A stretch of DNA of 44,892 nucleotides from Bacillota bacterium (lineage in GTDB: Bacteria; Bacillota; Limnochordia; Limnochordales; ZCTH02-B6). The stretch lies in NCBI GenBank assembly GCA_017656145.1, contig JACDOI010000018.1:1-44892 (forward strand). The letters run 5' to 3'. Positions 29,795 to 39,793 of the stretch are shown here, in pieces; position 1 is the first letter of the stretch, and each line of letters starts with the position of its first letter. Both the position numbers and the translations under genes were made by a program. A model generated the notes under the pieces. That model was not told where the DNA came from. It made no database searches and saw nothing but the letters and a program-made list of their open reading frames with translations.

Positions 29795-29880
<86 letters not shown>

Positions 29881-32902: not shown

Positions 32903-33907
32903 CTAACCCCCGTCCCGAACCTCAAGGAAGCGCCAGAGCTCATCCTGAGGGTACGGTGCGAGCGGTCGCCAGCGGCGGTCCCGGCCGCGGATGCGCCGTC
33001 CCGCGGAGGGTTCGACAAACCGGCCCACCGTTGCTGCCGGGATCCCGGCCCGCCCTAGGGCGTTCACCATCGCCGCCCCATCGGGAGCCGCAATGATCAT
33101 CATTCCCGACGACAACAGCCCAAGCGGGTCCAGGCCCAGGTGCCGGCAAATTTCGGCCGTCTCTGGCCGTACCGGTACCGCGTCTTCCCAAAGCTCGCAG
33201 CCAGCGCCCGACGCTTCGCACATCTCGTCCACCGCGCCGAGCAGCCCGCCCTCGGTCGCGTCGTGCATGGCCCGGGCACCGGCCTCGACGGCCACCAGCC
33301 CGTCCTTGACAACGCTGATCTCTTGGCCGAAGGCAACCGCCCGGGACACCACGTCCGGGCCCAGCGCGCGGGCAAGCTCCTCGCGGAAGTCCGCGGCCAG
33401 GATGGCGGTCCCCTCAAGACCGGCGGCCTTGGTCACCACCATATCAAAGCCGGGCACGGCGCCGGCGGGGGTGACGTAGCGGTCCTTCCGCGCGCGGCCG
33501 ATCGCGGTCACCACCGCCACCGTTTCCCGCACCCGGGACGTCACCTCGGTGTGGCCGCCGAGGACACTTATCCCAAGCCGGTCGGCTTCGACGTGAATGT
33601 CTGCCATGAGCTCTTCGAGTTCCGCGTCCTTCGCGCCCTCGGCCAGCAGGAGAACGGCCTGCACGCCTACGGGTGCCGCTCCGCAGGCGGCCACATCGTT
33701 GGTGGCCACCAGCACTGCCAACCGCCCCGCGCCCTTGGCGGCGCCGGTGATCGGATCGCTGGAGACGACGCACACTTCCTGCCCGAAATCGACCACCGCC
33801 GAGTCAAGCCCGATGCCCGGGCCGACCAGAACGTCCGGCCGGGAGCGACCCCGGTAGGGCAGCACCAGCCGGCGCAGCTGGGCCGCGCTCAACTTCCCCA
33901 CTTTCAT
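32903..33907 (-). CDS. AIR synthase-related (PurM/HypE-like) ATP-binding protein
   Basis: Member of the PurM/HypE/ThiL/SelD superfamily, which phosphorylates an amide or thio-acid oxygen with ATP. 334 residues. The N-terminal half has VGPGIGLDSAVVDFG, VVSSDPITGAAKGAGRLAV, LVATNDVAACGAAPVGVQAV and LGGHTEVTSRVRETVAVV; the C-terminal half has the HDATEGGLLGAVDEMCEASG glycine-rich loop and SSGMMIIAAPDGAAMV. The C-terminus ends FLEVRDGG and lacks the terminal Cys that HypE uses, so a hydrogenase-maturation role is unlikely. Its ATG overlaps the stop of the aminotransferase gene (ATGA). The substrate is unknown; it is presumably linked to the aminotransferase and nitrilase-family enzyme upstream. 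Confidence 0.8.
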   Translation of the reverse strand: MKVGKLSAAQLRRLVLPYRGRSRPDVLVGPGIGLDSAVVDFGQEVCVVSSDPITGAAKGAGRLAVLVATNDVAACGAAPVGVQAVLLLAEGAKDAELEELMADIHVEADRLGISVLGGHTEVTSRVRETVAVVTAIGRARKDRYVTPAGAVPGFDMVVTKAAGLEGTAILAADFREELARALGPDVVSRAVAFGQEISVVKDGLVAVEAGARAMHDATEGGLLGAVDEMCEASGAGCELWEDAVPVRPETAEICRHLGLDPLGLLSSGMMIIAAPDGAAMVNALGRAGIPAATVGRFVEPSAGRRIRGRDRRWRPLAPYPQDELWRFLEVRDGG

Positions 33908-35265
33908 GCCAGGCCCTCCCGCTTAAGCCGCGCAAGCGCCCTTTCGAACGCGGCCACGGTCTCCTCCACGTCGGCAGGCGAATGGGCCGCGGACAAAAAG
34001 CCGCCGCTGCGCATCAGATCGACCCCTTCCAAAAGCATCGCCTTGCGCAGCGCCACGGTGCGGGGACCTTTGGCTGCCTGTTCGAGCAGCCCCGGATCCA
34101 TTCCCCGGGGAGGCTCCCCGTCGGCCGGGCCGGGCGGCTCAACGCCGAGAGCGATGTGGAACATCGAAGCTTGCCGGTACGCGTACCCGGTCACGCCGGA
34201 TCTGGCAAGCGCCCCGTTCAACCCGTCGCACAAGCGCCGGCACAATTCCGCGGCCCGGCGGATGAGCCGGCCGTCCCGCAGCTGCTTCAAGGTGGCCACC
34301 GCGGCGGCGGCCGTCAACGGGTTCCCGTTGAACGTGCCTTGGTGCGCGATCTTGCGCCGCCGGTTCCACTCCTCATCCCGGTATTCCAGGTACGCCATCA
34401 TCTCCGCGGGCCCGGCCACGGCGGCGCCGGGAAGCCCGCCGGCTACGATCTTTCCCAGGCACACCAGGTCGGCCCGGATCCCGTAATGCTCCTGGGCCCC
34501 GCCCCGGGCAAGGCGGAATCCGGTGATCACTTCATCGAAGATGAGCACCGCACCGGCTCGCCGGGTCTCTTCCCGCACCAAGGCGAGAAACTCGCGCTCC
34601 ATCGGCACAGCCCCCCAGCCCCCGCCTCCGGGTTCCACGATGACGGCCGCAACGTCCAGATCCGATAGGGCGCGGCGAAGGGCATCGGCATCCCCCGCCG
34701 GCAATGCCACGGTGGCGGCCAGCGCCGCGGGCGATGCCCCGGTCGAGGCGGTCACGCCGAAGGGTCCCCGGTTGCCGGTGACCGCCTCGTCGTGCCACCC
34801 GTGGAAGTGACCGGCGAACTTGGCCACCCGGGTTCGGCCGGTGTGGGCCCGGGCCAGCCGCATGGCCAGCTGTGTCGCTTCGGTGCCCGAATTGACGAAC
34901 CGGACCCGCTCGGCCCCCGGAACCATTTCCGTCACAAGGCGGGCCCATTCCACCTCCAGCGGGTGGCTCGCCCCGAAGTGGGTGCCCCGCTCCAGCTGCT
35001 CGGCGAGAGCCCGGCGGACGGACGGATGGCCGTGACCCAGGATGAGGGCTCCGTGACCCATCCAGTAGTCGATGAGCCGCCGGCCGTCGACCGTCCACTT
35101 GTATGGGCCTTCGGCCCGGTCGACGAACACCGGAAACGGTTCCAGCCAGCGGGAATCGTGGGTGAGCCCGCCCGGCATATGCTCCTTGGCCTCGCGGAAC
35201 AGCTCCCGGGACCGCGCGAACGTCTCCGAAAAGTCGCGCTCCAGGTCGGTTGCCTCAACCCTCAT
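33904..35265 (-). CDS. Class III aminotransferase, glutamate-1-semialdehyde-aminomutase-like
   Basis: PLP enzyme of about 453 residues. MPGGLTHDSRW near residue 30 and VDGRRLIDYWMGHGALILGH give the HemL-like N-terminus; FVNSGTEATQLAMRLARAHT binds PLP phosphate; Asp244 in LIFDEVITGFRLARGG and Lys272 in LGKIVAGGLPGA are the PLP-binding residues. It is not clearly HemL: there are no heme genes nearby, and the family contains many 1,2- or omega-aminotransferases. ATG at 35265 lies 11 bp inside the end of the nitrilase-family gene; its SD is weak, which fits translational coupling. The stop overlaps the AIR-synthase-like gene by four bases. Confidence 0.83.
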   Translation of the reverse strand: MRVEATDLERDFSETFARSRELFREAKEHMPGGLTHDSRWLEPFPVFVDRAEGPYKWTVDGRRLIDYWMGHGALILGHGHPSVRRALAEQLERGTHFGASHPLEVEWARLVTEMVPGAERVRFVNSGTEATQLAMRLARAHTGRTRVAKFAGHFHGWHDEAVTGNRGPFGVTASTGASPAALAATVALPAGDADALRRALSDLDVAAVIVEPGGGGWGAVPMEREFLALVREETRRAGAVLIFDEVITGFRLARGGAQEHYGIRADLVCLGKIVAGGLPGAAVAGPAEMMAYLEYRDEEWNRRRKIAHQGTFNGNPLTAAAAVATLKQLRDGRLIRRAAELCRRLCDGLNGALARSGVTGYAYRQASMFHIALGVEPPGPADGEPPRGMDPGLLEQAAKGPRTVALRKAMLLEGVDLMRSGGFLSAAHSPADVEETVAAFERALARLKREGLA

Positions 35266-36070
35266 GGTCCGGTCGGTCCTCCAGACGGTACGCATCCGGG
35301 CGCCGGTCCGACAAGGACGGCAGCTCGGCCCGGATCCGGTCCGCTTCTTCCAAGGACACTGTCACGGTAACGACGGCTTCTTCACCTTCCGCCGCGTCCT
35401 GCACGACCCCCCACGGGTCGATGATGCGGGAGCCGCCCGCGTACGTCAGGCCTTTCCACGAGCCCACGGTGTTGGCTGCCACGACCCAGCACTGGTTTTC
35501 CACAGCCCGGGCGGCCAAGAGCGTCTCCCAGTGCCGCTGGCGGGCAGCGGGCCACTGGGCGGCGTACAGCAGCATGCGGGCCCCGGCGGTTGCCAGGATG
35601 CGGGCCGGTTCGGGAAACCGCAAATCGTAACAAATGAGGCCCCCGACCGGTCCCGCCGCGGTTTCAAACAGCGTCAGGCCGCGACCGGCTCGAAAGTGGA
35701 GATGCTCGCCGGTCAACGGAAACAGGTGAATCTTCCGGTACGTTCCCGTGATCTGCCCGCCGGGGGCCACGTGAACCAGCGCATTGTACACCCCGCCGTC
35801 CCGGAATTCGGGAATGGATCCGAACACGGACATCCCGGCACCGGTGGCGAAGTCCCGGAGCAAGTCCAGGGTGGGTTCCCACGCTTCTTTGGCGAGGCGG
35901 TCCAGCTCGCCGTAGGCAAAGCCCGTATTCCACATCTCCGGTAACAGCGCGATCCCAGACCGGCGCCGGGCCGCCTCCTCCAGCAGGCGGCCGGCCCGGG
36001 CAATGTTTGCCCGAACATCGCCGGCTACGACCGGCATCTGGATGGCGCTTACCGTGATGCGGCGTTCCAT
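35255..36070 (-). CDS. Carbon-nitrogen hydrolase (nitrilase/omega-amidase family)
   Basis: Hydrolyses an amide or nitrile through a Glu-Lys-Cys triad. 271 residues. The triad is Glu45 (LLPEMWNTGF), Lys113 (YRKIHLFPL) and Cys147 (LICYDLRFPEPARIL). It resembles omega-amidase/YafV-type enzymes, which act on alpha-keto acid amides, but beta-ureidopropionase- and N-carbamoylase-like members share this pattern. It is 78 bp after the alanine dehydrogenase gene and overlaps the aminotransferase start, so an amino-nitrogen metabolic role in the same pathway is likely. Confidence 0.85.
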   Translation of the reverse strand: MERRITVSAIQMPVVAGDVRANIARAGRLLEEAARRRSGIALLPEMWNTGFAYGELDRLAKEAWEPTLDLLRDFATGAGMSVFGSIPEFRDGGVYNALVHVAPGGQITGTYRKIHLFPLTGEHLHFRAGRGLTLFETAAGPVGGLICYDLRFPEPARILATAGARMLLYAAQWPAARQRHWETLLAARAVENQCWVVAANTVGSWKGLTYAGGSRIIDPWGVVQDAAEGEEAVVTVTVSLEEADRIRAELPSLSDRRPDAYRLEDRPDHEG

Positions 36071-37343: not shown

Positions 37344-38759
37344 CTAGCCCCCGTTGACGGTGTAGACTTGGAGCAAATTGGTGGACCCCGGCTCTCCGGT
37401 CTTCACGCCTGCAGTGATGATCACCCGGTCTCCCTTGCGCACGTAGCCGTGGCGCTCGGCCGCATCGACAGCCACATCGATCATGTCGTCGATGTTGCGG
37501 GTATACGGCACCACGATGGGCTCTACTCCCCACACCAGCGACAGGCGGCGGGCCACCTCCGGGAAAGGAGTCATGGCCAGGATCGGCGTCCCCGGCCGGA
37601 ACTTGGACACCATCCGGGCGGTGCTGCCCGACTGGGTGGACGTCAAAATGGCCGCCGCGTGCAAATCGGACGCCGCCCGGCACGTCGCGTAGCTGATGGC
37701 CTCGGCAATGGACGGCGACGGGCCGCTGGTGCGGCCGGCCAGCAACTGATCATACACGATGGCTCCTTCGGTGCGGCGGGCGATCCGGTCCATGACCCGG
37801 ACCGCGGCCACCGGGTAGCGCCCCGCCGCGGTTTCGCCCGAAAGCATCACAGCATCGGTCCCGTCGAAGATGGCGGTGGCCACGTCGGTGACTTCGGCCC
37901 GGGTGGGTCGAGGGTTGTGCACCATCGATTCGAGCATCTGGGTCGCGGTGATGACCGGCTTCCCCCGGCGGTTGCACGCCGCGATGATCCGCTTTTGCAC
38001 GAGGGGCACTTCCTCAGCCGGGATTTGCACGCCCAGATCGCCCCGGGCCACCATCAGGCCGTCGGCCTCGTCCGCGATCTCTTCGAGATGCCGCACCCCT
38101 TCGTGGTTCTCGATCTTCGCGATGACCGGCTGCTCTCCGCCCGCTTCCCGAATGGCCTGCTTCACCTGAACCACGTGCTCCGGGCGCCGGACGAACGAAG
38201 CCGCCACGAAGTCCACTCCGTGGGCGACGCCGAACCGGATGCACTCCCGGTCCGTTTCGGTGAGGGCCGGCCAGTCCAGCTCGGCCCCCGGCAGCGTCAC
38301 GCCCTTGCGCGATCGCAGCTGGCCGCCGGTGACGACCCGGCAGTGCGCGAGTCCTCCTTCGATGCGCTCGACCCGCAGTTCGATGAGGCCGTCGTCCAGG
38401 TAGACAGTGCCGCCCGGCTGTAGCAGGCGGGCAAAGGACGGGTAGCTGACCGAGGCCCGGGACGCGTCCCCGGTGATCGGCTCGCTGGTGAGAGTAAAGG
38501 TTTCTCCGGACTCCAAGAAAACAGGATCGGGCTCGAGATCGCCGATGCGGATCTTCGGGCCCTGAATGTCCAGCAAAATGCCGATGTGGCGCCCCGCCTG
38601 GGCCGCCGCTTCCCGGATCCGTTGGATGCGGGAGGCCTGCTCCTTTAGGCTGCTGTGGGAAGCGTTCAACCTGGCCACGTCCATGCCGGCCCCGATCAGC
38701 TCTTGCAGCAGGCCGTCGCTGGACGGACCAATGGTACAGACGATCTTGGTGCGGCGCAA
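37344..38759 (-). CDS. pyk: Pyruvate kinase
   Basis: Last step of glycolysis, phosphoenolpyruvate plus ADP to pyruvate plus ATP. About 471 residues. RRTKIVCTIGPSSDG begins the barrel; IAKIENHEGVRHLEEI holds the active Lys and Glu, ARGDLGVQIPAEEVPLVQK the metal Asp, ITATQMLESMVHNPRPTRAE the signature, and AVMLSGETAAGRYPVAAV follows. It lacks the extra C-terminal PEP-utiliser-like domain of Bacillus enzymes. TTG at 38759 has a perfect AAGGAGG eight bases upstream, better than the GTG overlapping the accA stop. It is 29 bp after accA. Confidence 0.95.
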   Translation of the reverse strand: MRRTKIVCTIGPSSDGLLQELIGAGMDVARLNASHSSLKEQASRIQRIREAAAQAGRHIGILLDIQGPKIRIGDLEPDPVFLESGETFTLTSEPITGDASRASVSYPSFARLLQPGGTVYLDDGLIELRVERIEGGLAHCRVVTGGQLRSRKGVTLPGAELDWPALTETDRECIRFGVAHGVDFVAASFVRRPEHVVQVKQAIREAGGEQPVIAKIENHEGVRHLEEIADEADGLMVARGDLGVQIPAEEVPLVQKRIIAACNRRGKPVITATQMLESMVHNPRPTRAEVTDVATAIFDGTDAVMLSGETAAGRYPVAAVRVMDRIARRTEGAIVYDQLLAGRTSGPSPSIAEAISYATCRAASDLHAAAILTSTQSGSTARMVSKFRPGTPILAMTPFPEVARRLSLVWGVEPIVVPYTRNIDDMIDVAVDAAERHGYVRKGDRVIITAGVKTGEPGSTNLLQVYTVNGG

Positions 38760-38788
38760 GCCCCGAACCTCCTTCGGCTGCCGCCGGG

Positions 38789-39793
38789 TCACGCCTCCGC
38801 CTGCCCGCTGCGGATGGCTTCGAGCCGCTCCGCCGTTTGTTCCTGCAGGCGTCCCATGGCCCGATACTTCTTGAGCCGGCGATCCAGCAGCTCGTCGGGG
38901 TCCAGGGCCATAAGCTCCCGGAGATGGCGCAGCACCGCTTCCTTGAGCCGCCGGGCGACTTCCTCCCGGTCCCGGTGCGCCCCGCCCAGCGGCTCGGGAA
39001 TGATCTCGTCGATCACGCCCAGCTCCAGCAAATCCCGGGCACCGAGCTTCAAAACGCCCGCCGCCTCCGGGGCCCGGCCGGTATCCTTCCACAGGATCTC
39101 AGCGCACATCTCGGGGGAGATCACCGAGTACCACGCGTTTTCCATCATCAGCACCCGGTCGCCGACACCGATGGCCAGCGCCCCGCCGCTGCCCCCTTCG
39201 CCGGTGATGACGCACACGACGGGTACCCGCAGAAACGACATGCGCCGGATGTTTTCGGCGATGACCACCCCTTGCCCCCTCTGCTCGGCCTCAATGCCCG
39301 GGTACGCACCCACCACATCAATCAAGGAAAGAATGGGCCGGCCGAACTTTTCCGCCTGAACCATGAGGCGCAGGGCCTTGCGGTACCCCTCCGGATGGGG
39401 AAGCCCGAAGTTTCGGCGGATGTTTTCCTTGGTGTCCCGGCCCTTTTGCGGTCCGACGACCGTGATGGGAATGCCGTCCAAGAGCGCCACGCCGCCCACC
39501 ATCGCTTCATCGTTCCGGACGCACCGGTCGCCAGACAGCTCGAGAAAGTCGGTGCAGATCATGCCGATGTAGTCCAACGTGGTCGGACGGCGAGGATGCC
39601 GGGCCAGCTGAACCCGCTGCCACGGAGTGAGATTGCTGAAAATCTCGGCCCGCAACCGGTCGGCCTTCCGCTCCAAGGTGGCGATTTCCTGGCTGAAATC
39701 GATGCCCTTCTCCTTGGTGAACGCTTGCAGCTCCCGGATGCGGTTTTCCAGTTCCACAAGGGGGCGCTCCCACTCAAAGACGCCGTTGACCAC
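38789..39793 (-). CDS. accA: Acetyl-CoA carboxylase carboxyltransferase subunit alpha
   Basis: With AccD forms the carboxyltransferase that makes malonyl-CoA. About 334 residues. The N-terminus FEWERPLVELENRIRELQAF and the FSNLTPWQRVQLARHPRRPT segment, GGVALLDGIPITVVGPQKGR, LSLIDVVGAYPGIEAEQRGQ and CVITGEGGSGGALAIGVGDR are the AccA landmarks. GTG at 39793 has GGAGG seven bases upstream. It starts 11 bp after accD. The open frame extends far into accD but is not translated there. Confidence 0.95.
   Translation of the reverse strand: MVNGVFEWERPLVELENRIRELQAFTKEKGIDFSQEIATLERKADRLRAEIFSNLTPWQRVQLARHPRRPTTLDYIGMICTDFLELSGDRCVRNDEAMVGGVALLDGIPITVVGPQKGRDTKENIRRNFGLPHPEGYRKALRLMVQAEKFGRPILSLIDVVGAYPGIEAEQRGQGVVIAENIRRMSFLRVPVVCVITGEGGSGGALAIGVGDRVLMMENAWYSVISPEMCAEILWKDTGRAPEAAGVLKLGARDLLELGVIDEIIPEPLGGAHRDREEVARRLKEAVLRHLRELMALDPDELLDRRLKKYRAMGRLQEQTAERLEAIRSGQAEA

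Follow-up and report, generated by a model that had tools for sequence, protein, structure and literature searches.

A conserved aminotransferase–PurM-like gene pair behind pyk in Limnochordia, and the unassigned superfamily branch to which its PurM-like member belongs

The window analyzed here is a 44,892-nucleotide stretch of DNA from a Limnochordia bacterium (contig JACDOI010000018.1). On its minus strand, pyk and then ald lie upstream of three overlapping genes that encode a nitrilase-superfamily hydrolase, a class III aminotransferase (AT) and a protein of the PurM/HypE superfamily, referred to below as PurM-like. The features discussed in this work are the following.

29795–29877, plus strand: tRNA gene (57 bits), the sole Rfam match in the window
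32903–33907, minus strand: PurM-like protein of the PurM/HypE superfamily ('AIR synthase family', DEL(W/Y) family), 334 aa, with PF00586 and PF02769
33904–35265, minus strand: class III aminotransferase, GSAM/D-phenylglycine-aminotransferase-like, with PF00202; start set by orthologues
35255–36070, minus strand: nitrilase-superfamily C-N hydrolase of the omega-amidase/YafV-like branch, with PF00795
36149–37270, minus strand: alanine dehydrogenase (ald), TIGR00518; GTG start inferred from the match
37344–38766, minus strand: pyruvate kinase (pyk), TIGR01064, 555 bits

The longest open reading frame of the AT covers 33904–35295, and alignment with relatives placed the orthologue-matching start at the ATG at position 35265. 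Counted from this codon, the AT overlaps the nitrilase gene by 11 bp; its overlap with the PurM-like gene is 4 bp (ATGA). The pyk reading frame reaches position 39092, with the conserved portion starting near residue 110. The Pfam assignments were all far above cut-off: AIRS (PF00586, 54 bits) and AIRS_C (PF02769, 62 bits) for PurM-like, Aminotran_3 (PF00202, 204 bits) for the AT and CN_hydrolase (PF00795, 184 bits) for the nitrilase; ald scored 535 bits with TIGR00518 (cut-off 392). A first-pass annotation of the window had described the two overlaps, the three domains and the alanine dehydrogenase upstream, and this anatomy is borne out by the open reading frame positions, the junction sequence, the orthologue-based AT start and the profile matches.

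Gene order was compared across 61 genomes, comprising the source genome and 60 others from the same family, order and class. In the class, the order dnaE-accD-accA-(pfkA)-pyk is followed by variable genes ending in PurM-like, and the space between pyk and PurM-like holds ald, fxsA, the AT, combinations of these or nothing, depending on the genome. The nitrilase, AT and PurM-like genes occur together in the source genome alone and in none of the 60 relatives. In the nearest relatives (G002 and G004, with AT orthologues at 73–74%), the order is pyk-ald-AT-PurM-like and the nitrilase is absent. The top nitrilase orthologue among the relatives (48%) was found in a single other genome, G015, from a different family, where it stands in the order pyk-ald-nitrilase at the same operon position (dnaE, accA, pyk); neither a PurM-like match nor an AT orthologue was found in this genome. 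Based on these gene orders, the nitrilase travels with ald and the AT with PurM-like. The trio belongs to two conserved pairs, ald-nitrilase and AT-PurM-like, that are independent of each other and happen to be neighbours behind pyk.

Thirteen of the 61 genomes, from families f1, f2, f3, f5 and f12, encode an AT orthologue with 52% identity or more, and each of the 13 has it immediately upstream of PurM-like. No further AT copy was found at E ≤ 1e-100 across 73 genomes of the class; the next-best matches have at most 44% identity and include the true HemL of the source genome. PurM-like is found in 45 of the 61 genomes, 32 of which carry it without the AT. Its position was inspected in 41 of them, and it is always downstream of pyk (in G039 the contig begins at ald). 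Thirteen of the 45 PurM-like carriers have the AT versus none of the 16 non-carriers, a difference with p ~0.01 if shared ancestry is ignored. PurM-like is absent from two genomes of the same family (G001 and G003). The AT and PurM-like genes form a tight, conserved two-gene module in the class. In G011 (C2:8644-9517), PurM-like is split over two frames next to an intact AT, through either a frameshift or a sequencing error.

The PLP-binding lysine of the AT (K282) is invariant in the orthologue alignment and the active-site motifs are conserved. Its closest solved relatives are D-phenylglycine aminotransferase, the nearest, and GSAM (2cy8 with 309 bits and 2epj with 257 bits). Identity with HemL (GSAM) itself was rejected: the AT scores 326 bits with the HemL model TIGR00713 (cut-off 527), it does not keep the C-terminal PP(A/S)QFE motif of HemL, the QFE stretch being replaced by DLMR.GG, and a true HemL scoring 630 bits is encoded elsewhere in the genome.

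The nitrilase retains the Glu, Lys and Cys residues of its superfamily in LLPEM, YRK and GLICYD. These motifs are common to the omega-amidase/YafV/Nit2 branch, which provides its best family model, although the score with the YafV (PRK10438) model NF007757 is below cut-off (143 versus 249 bits) and no MtnE-type glutamine transaminase partner was established. Nit1C/sll0787-type clusters combine a nitrilase-superfamily protein with an AIRS protein, the same pairing as in the window, but the scores with their models TIGR04049 (46.5 versus 321 bits) and TIGR04048 (23.4 versus 503 bits) are far below the cut-offs. Most probably, the nitrilase provides a side activity of its own, of omega-amidase type, and accompanies ald.

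A scan of the sequence collection for PurM-like returned at least 591 stretches, of which at least 580 were confirmed. Hundreds of loci make up the family, which is distributed over Clostridia, Halanaerobiales, Chloroflexi, Armatimonadetes and archaea; the first two groups account for most of the best 80 of the at least 591 stretches, and the other three are also represented among them. Further homologues reside on plasmids of Haloferax, Haloarcula and Halobacterium. Members are named 'AIR synthase family protein' by NCBI and nothing more, and we found no named function for the family in the literature. A phage family without known function, phrog_36592, matches PurM-like with 106 bits, so viral relatives exist. 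One relative, G006, has two additional diverged copies (~39%; L076:7563-9470, plus strand, and L077:8442-10337, minus strand) located in long open reading frames, in which the ~280 residues in front match no Pfam family and could represent a fusion or just a long open frame.

Both the N- and the C-terminal AIRS domains of the PurM superfamily, with their Asp/Asn-Asp/Gly-Gly motifs, are present in PurM-like. Among 112 aligned members, G4, K5, D35, D51-P-I-T54, N70-D71, GGH119 (including G117 and G118), E121, E165, H215-D216, E219, S267-G268 and D322 are invariant. The last of these, found in 112 of 112 sequences, is the first residue of a conserved C-terminal DEL(W/Y) motif. The cysteine that terminates HypE, noted as missing from the window protein in the first-pass annotation, is absent from all 112 aligned tails, the Cys near the end of the L102 protein being a chance occurrence. 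No close solved structure was found in the PDB. The AlphaFold model (pLDDT 92.7) has its best fold match in Thermococcus kodakarensis HypE (3vys, TM 0.80), followed by SelD and ThiL.

PurM-like falls below every equivalog cut-off in NCBIfam, including those of HypE (TIGR02124, 97.8 versus 251.6 bits), ThiL (TIGR01379, 75 versus 184 bits) and SelD (TIGR00476, 80 versus 125 bits). ThiL and SelD belong to the same superfamily and a GGH motif is common to SelD-type proteins and PurM-like, but, besides these low scores, the source genome has a separate ThiL and a separate SelD, assigned by their sequence motifs. As it also carries purM/purL-type copies, PurM-like is left without a role among the known members. 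Since the cut-offs are missed, ThiL and SelD are accounted for separately, and HypD, CobS and CobT are absent, we assign the PurM-like family to an unassigned branch of the superfamily, distinct from HypE, SelD, ThiL, PurM and CblS.

Outside the class, the neighbours of PurM-like vary by lineage, and genomic context thus yields no single pathway. In Halanaerobiales, Thermofilum, ANGP1 and other Bacillota MAGs, PurM-like directly follows an ECF S component whose sole PDB sequence match is chain S of 4hzu, the HmpT complex. Judged by this match, the S component resembles HmpT, a pyridoxamine/pyrimidine transporter. In Enterococcus, a relative of the S component is flanked by a ThiD-type kinase gene and a second gene. 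In one Halanaerobiaceae MAG (L100:1797-1929, plus strand), an FMN riboswitch (106 bits) and a terminator precede the ECF S component and PurM-like genes; a scan with permissive settings at four further Halanaerobiales loci detected no riboswitch at that position, and among the FMN riboswitches of 19 carrier genomes this is the sole case at a PurM-like gene. Control of the ECF-PurM-like operons by TPP or other riboswitches was considered and dropped, the lone FMN riboswitch being the one found there.

In several lineages, PLP enzymes of different families are encoded within three genes of PurM-like. Such neighbours numbered 31 of 550 near versus 4 of 652 far, or 5 of 240 versus 0 of 359 when counted at the family level, but because the near clusters themselves supplied the profiles, which biases the enrichment, and the loci share ancestry and are not independent, we treat it as a lead only. 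Three other features were observed near PurM-like genes. A cobalamin riboswitch (L093:11489-11636, plus strand) lies between PurM-like and a gene of class I aminotransferase type, perhaps CobD-like. An OLE RNA (L085:12475-13071, minus strand, 405 bits) is located ~1.5 kb past PurM-like in the MAG UBA5435. In one family of the class, a CofE-like gene (F420 gamma-glutamyl ligase family) follows PurM-like at ~13 loci, for example L057:9323-10114 and L061:9817-10533 (plus strand).

How the genes behind pyk relate to each other can be read in several ways. The first-pass annotation proposed a single system in which the three enzymes activate, aminate and hydrolyse one compound. Such a pathway agrees with the 11-bp and 4-bp translational overlaps found in the source genome and with the catalytic motifs retained in all three enzymes, but the trio is confined to this genome among the 61 compared, which is the outcome that the annotation itself had named as refuting its proposal, the nitrilase is not found between ald and the AT in G002 and G004, and its orthologue in G015 stands behind ald with neither AT nor PurM-like. 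With the AT and PurM-like paired, and PurM-like mostly occurring without either partner, the three-step pathway loses its main support and we consider it very improbable; the remark that the combination matches no described pathway holds up. A much more serious possibility, if one we doubt on balance, is that the AT and PurM-like share no metabolite at all: PurM-like would be a housekeeping enzyme kept beside pyk by ancestral order, and the AT an independent insertion stabilized by its position. The 32 genomes with PurM-like and no AT would fit this, as would the presence of fxsA, ald and the nitrilase in the same slot. Against it, the AT orthologue is never found away from PurM-like in 73 genomes over several families, unlike ald and the nitrilase, which do occur without PurM-like.

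As for PurM-like itself, its top PDB sequence and fold matches are HypE proteins, with which it has the motifs ND.A..GA.P and HD/RD.T.GG in common, and a HypE paralogue serving NiFe-hydrogenase maturation might be expected from them. However, the family has the invariant Asp of DEL(W/Y) instead of the C-terminal Cys, and HypD, present in 12 of the 61 genomes compared with 45 for PurM-like, is missing from the source genome and from most carriers. In relatives that do encode HypD, G005 and G006 among them, HypD has its own HypE-like gene next to it. HypE identity was rejected, and a paralogue of this kind seems hardly credible. The ECF S neighbour also suggested CblS, an alpha-ribazole kinase partnered by the ECF S component CblT: CblS of the L. 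plantarum plasmid pMF1298-5 has a weak AIRS match and adjoins an ECF S gene, a parallel to the PurM-like loci, and CobT is absent from the source genome. CblS (252 aa versus 334 aa) gave no significant BLASTP alignment with PurM-like, though, and the source genome lacks CobS too, leaving it without a nucleotide-loop assembly that such a kinase could feed; this identification was likewise rejected and has next to no plausibility. Salvage of vitamin B6 or aminomethylpyrimidine, with PurM-like phosphorylating a B6 or pyrimidine vitamer that PLP/PMP-dependent aminotransferases use or make, is unlikely but deserves more weight. It draws on the HmpT-like S component directly upstream in several bacterial and archaeal lineages, on the binding of pyridoxamine by HmpT (PMC4860826), on the PLP enzymes close by and on the source genome having a single strong PF08543 kinase. 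Against it, the enrichment of PLP enzymes among the neighbours is weak as well as biased, the FMN riboswitch on one S-component operon points to flavins, and a ThiD-type kinase is kept in the source genome.

The explanation we favour, tentatively and at somewhat less than an even chance, is that of a variable slot holding a PurM-like kinase or activating enzyme and an AT that acts in the same route. The slot behind dnaE-accD-accA-(pfkA)-pyk is filled by separable modules: ald, ald-nitrilase, fxsA and AT-PurM-like. Within the last of these, PurM-like, as a member of the HypE/ThiL/SelD superfamily, may use ATP to phosphorylate or activate a small metabolite of vitamin or cofactor type. The dedicated AT would aminate or deaminate a compound of that route, with pyk and ald supplying its pyruvate/alanine pool. 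What the data show is how the genes are ordered and paired, the predicted fold, the motifs shared across the family and the misfit of the known members; a kinase-type reaction, a vitamin-type substrate and a link between the two enzymes are inferred. B6, pyrimidine and flavin are all kept as candidate substrates. RibF and ThiD/PdxK-family genes are present in the source genome and in most carriers tested, so PurM-like is not a simple replacement of a missing vitamin kinase, and the idea that it stands in for a lost riboflavin kinase or ThiD/PdxK was not supported.

Of the first-pass description, the anatomy, the missing cysteine and the lack of a described pathway that fits stand, and the single three-gene system does not; the locus is left with the conserved AT-PurM-like module and, in PurM-like, a member of an orphan family. 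As an outside chance, the DEL(W/Y) family could represent undescribed kinases of vitamin precursors (B6, aminomethylpyrimidine or flavin) in Clostridia and archaea, with the AT recruited in this class as a second salvage enzyme. Automatic naming masks this ATP-binding family, which numbers hundreds of members across gut Clostridia, thermophiles and archaea, behind 'AIR synthase' and HypE labels. Its pairing with the AT on the one side and with the ECF S component on the other offers two handles on the substrate of PurM-like.
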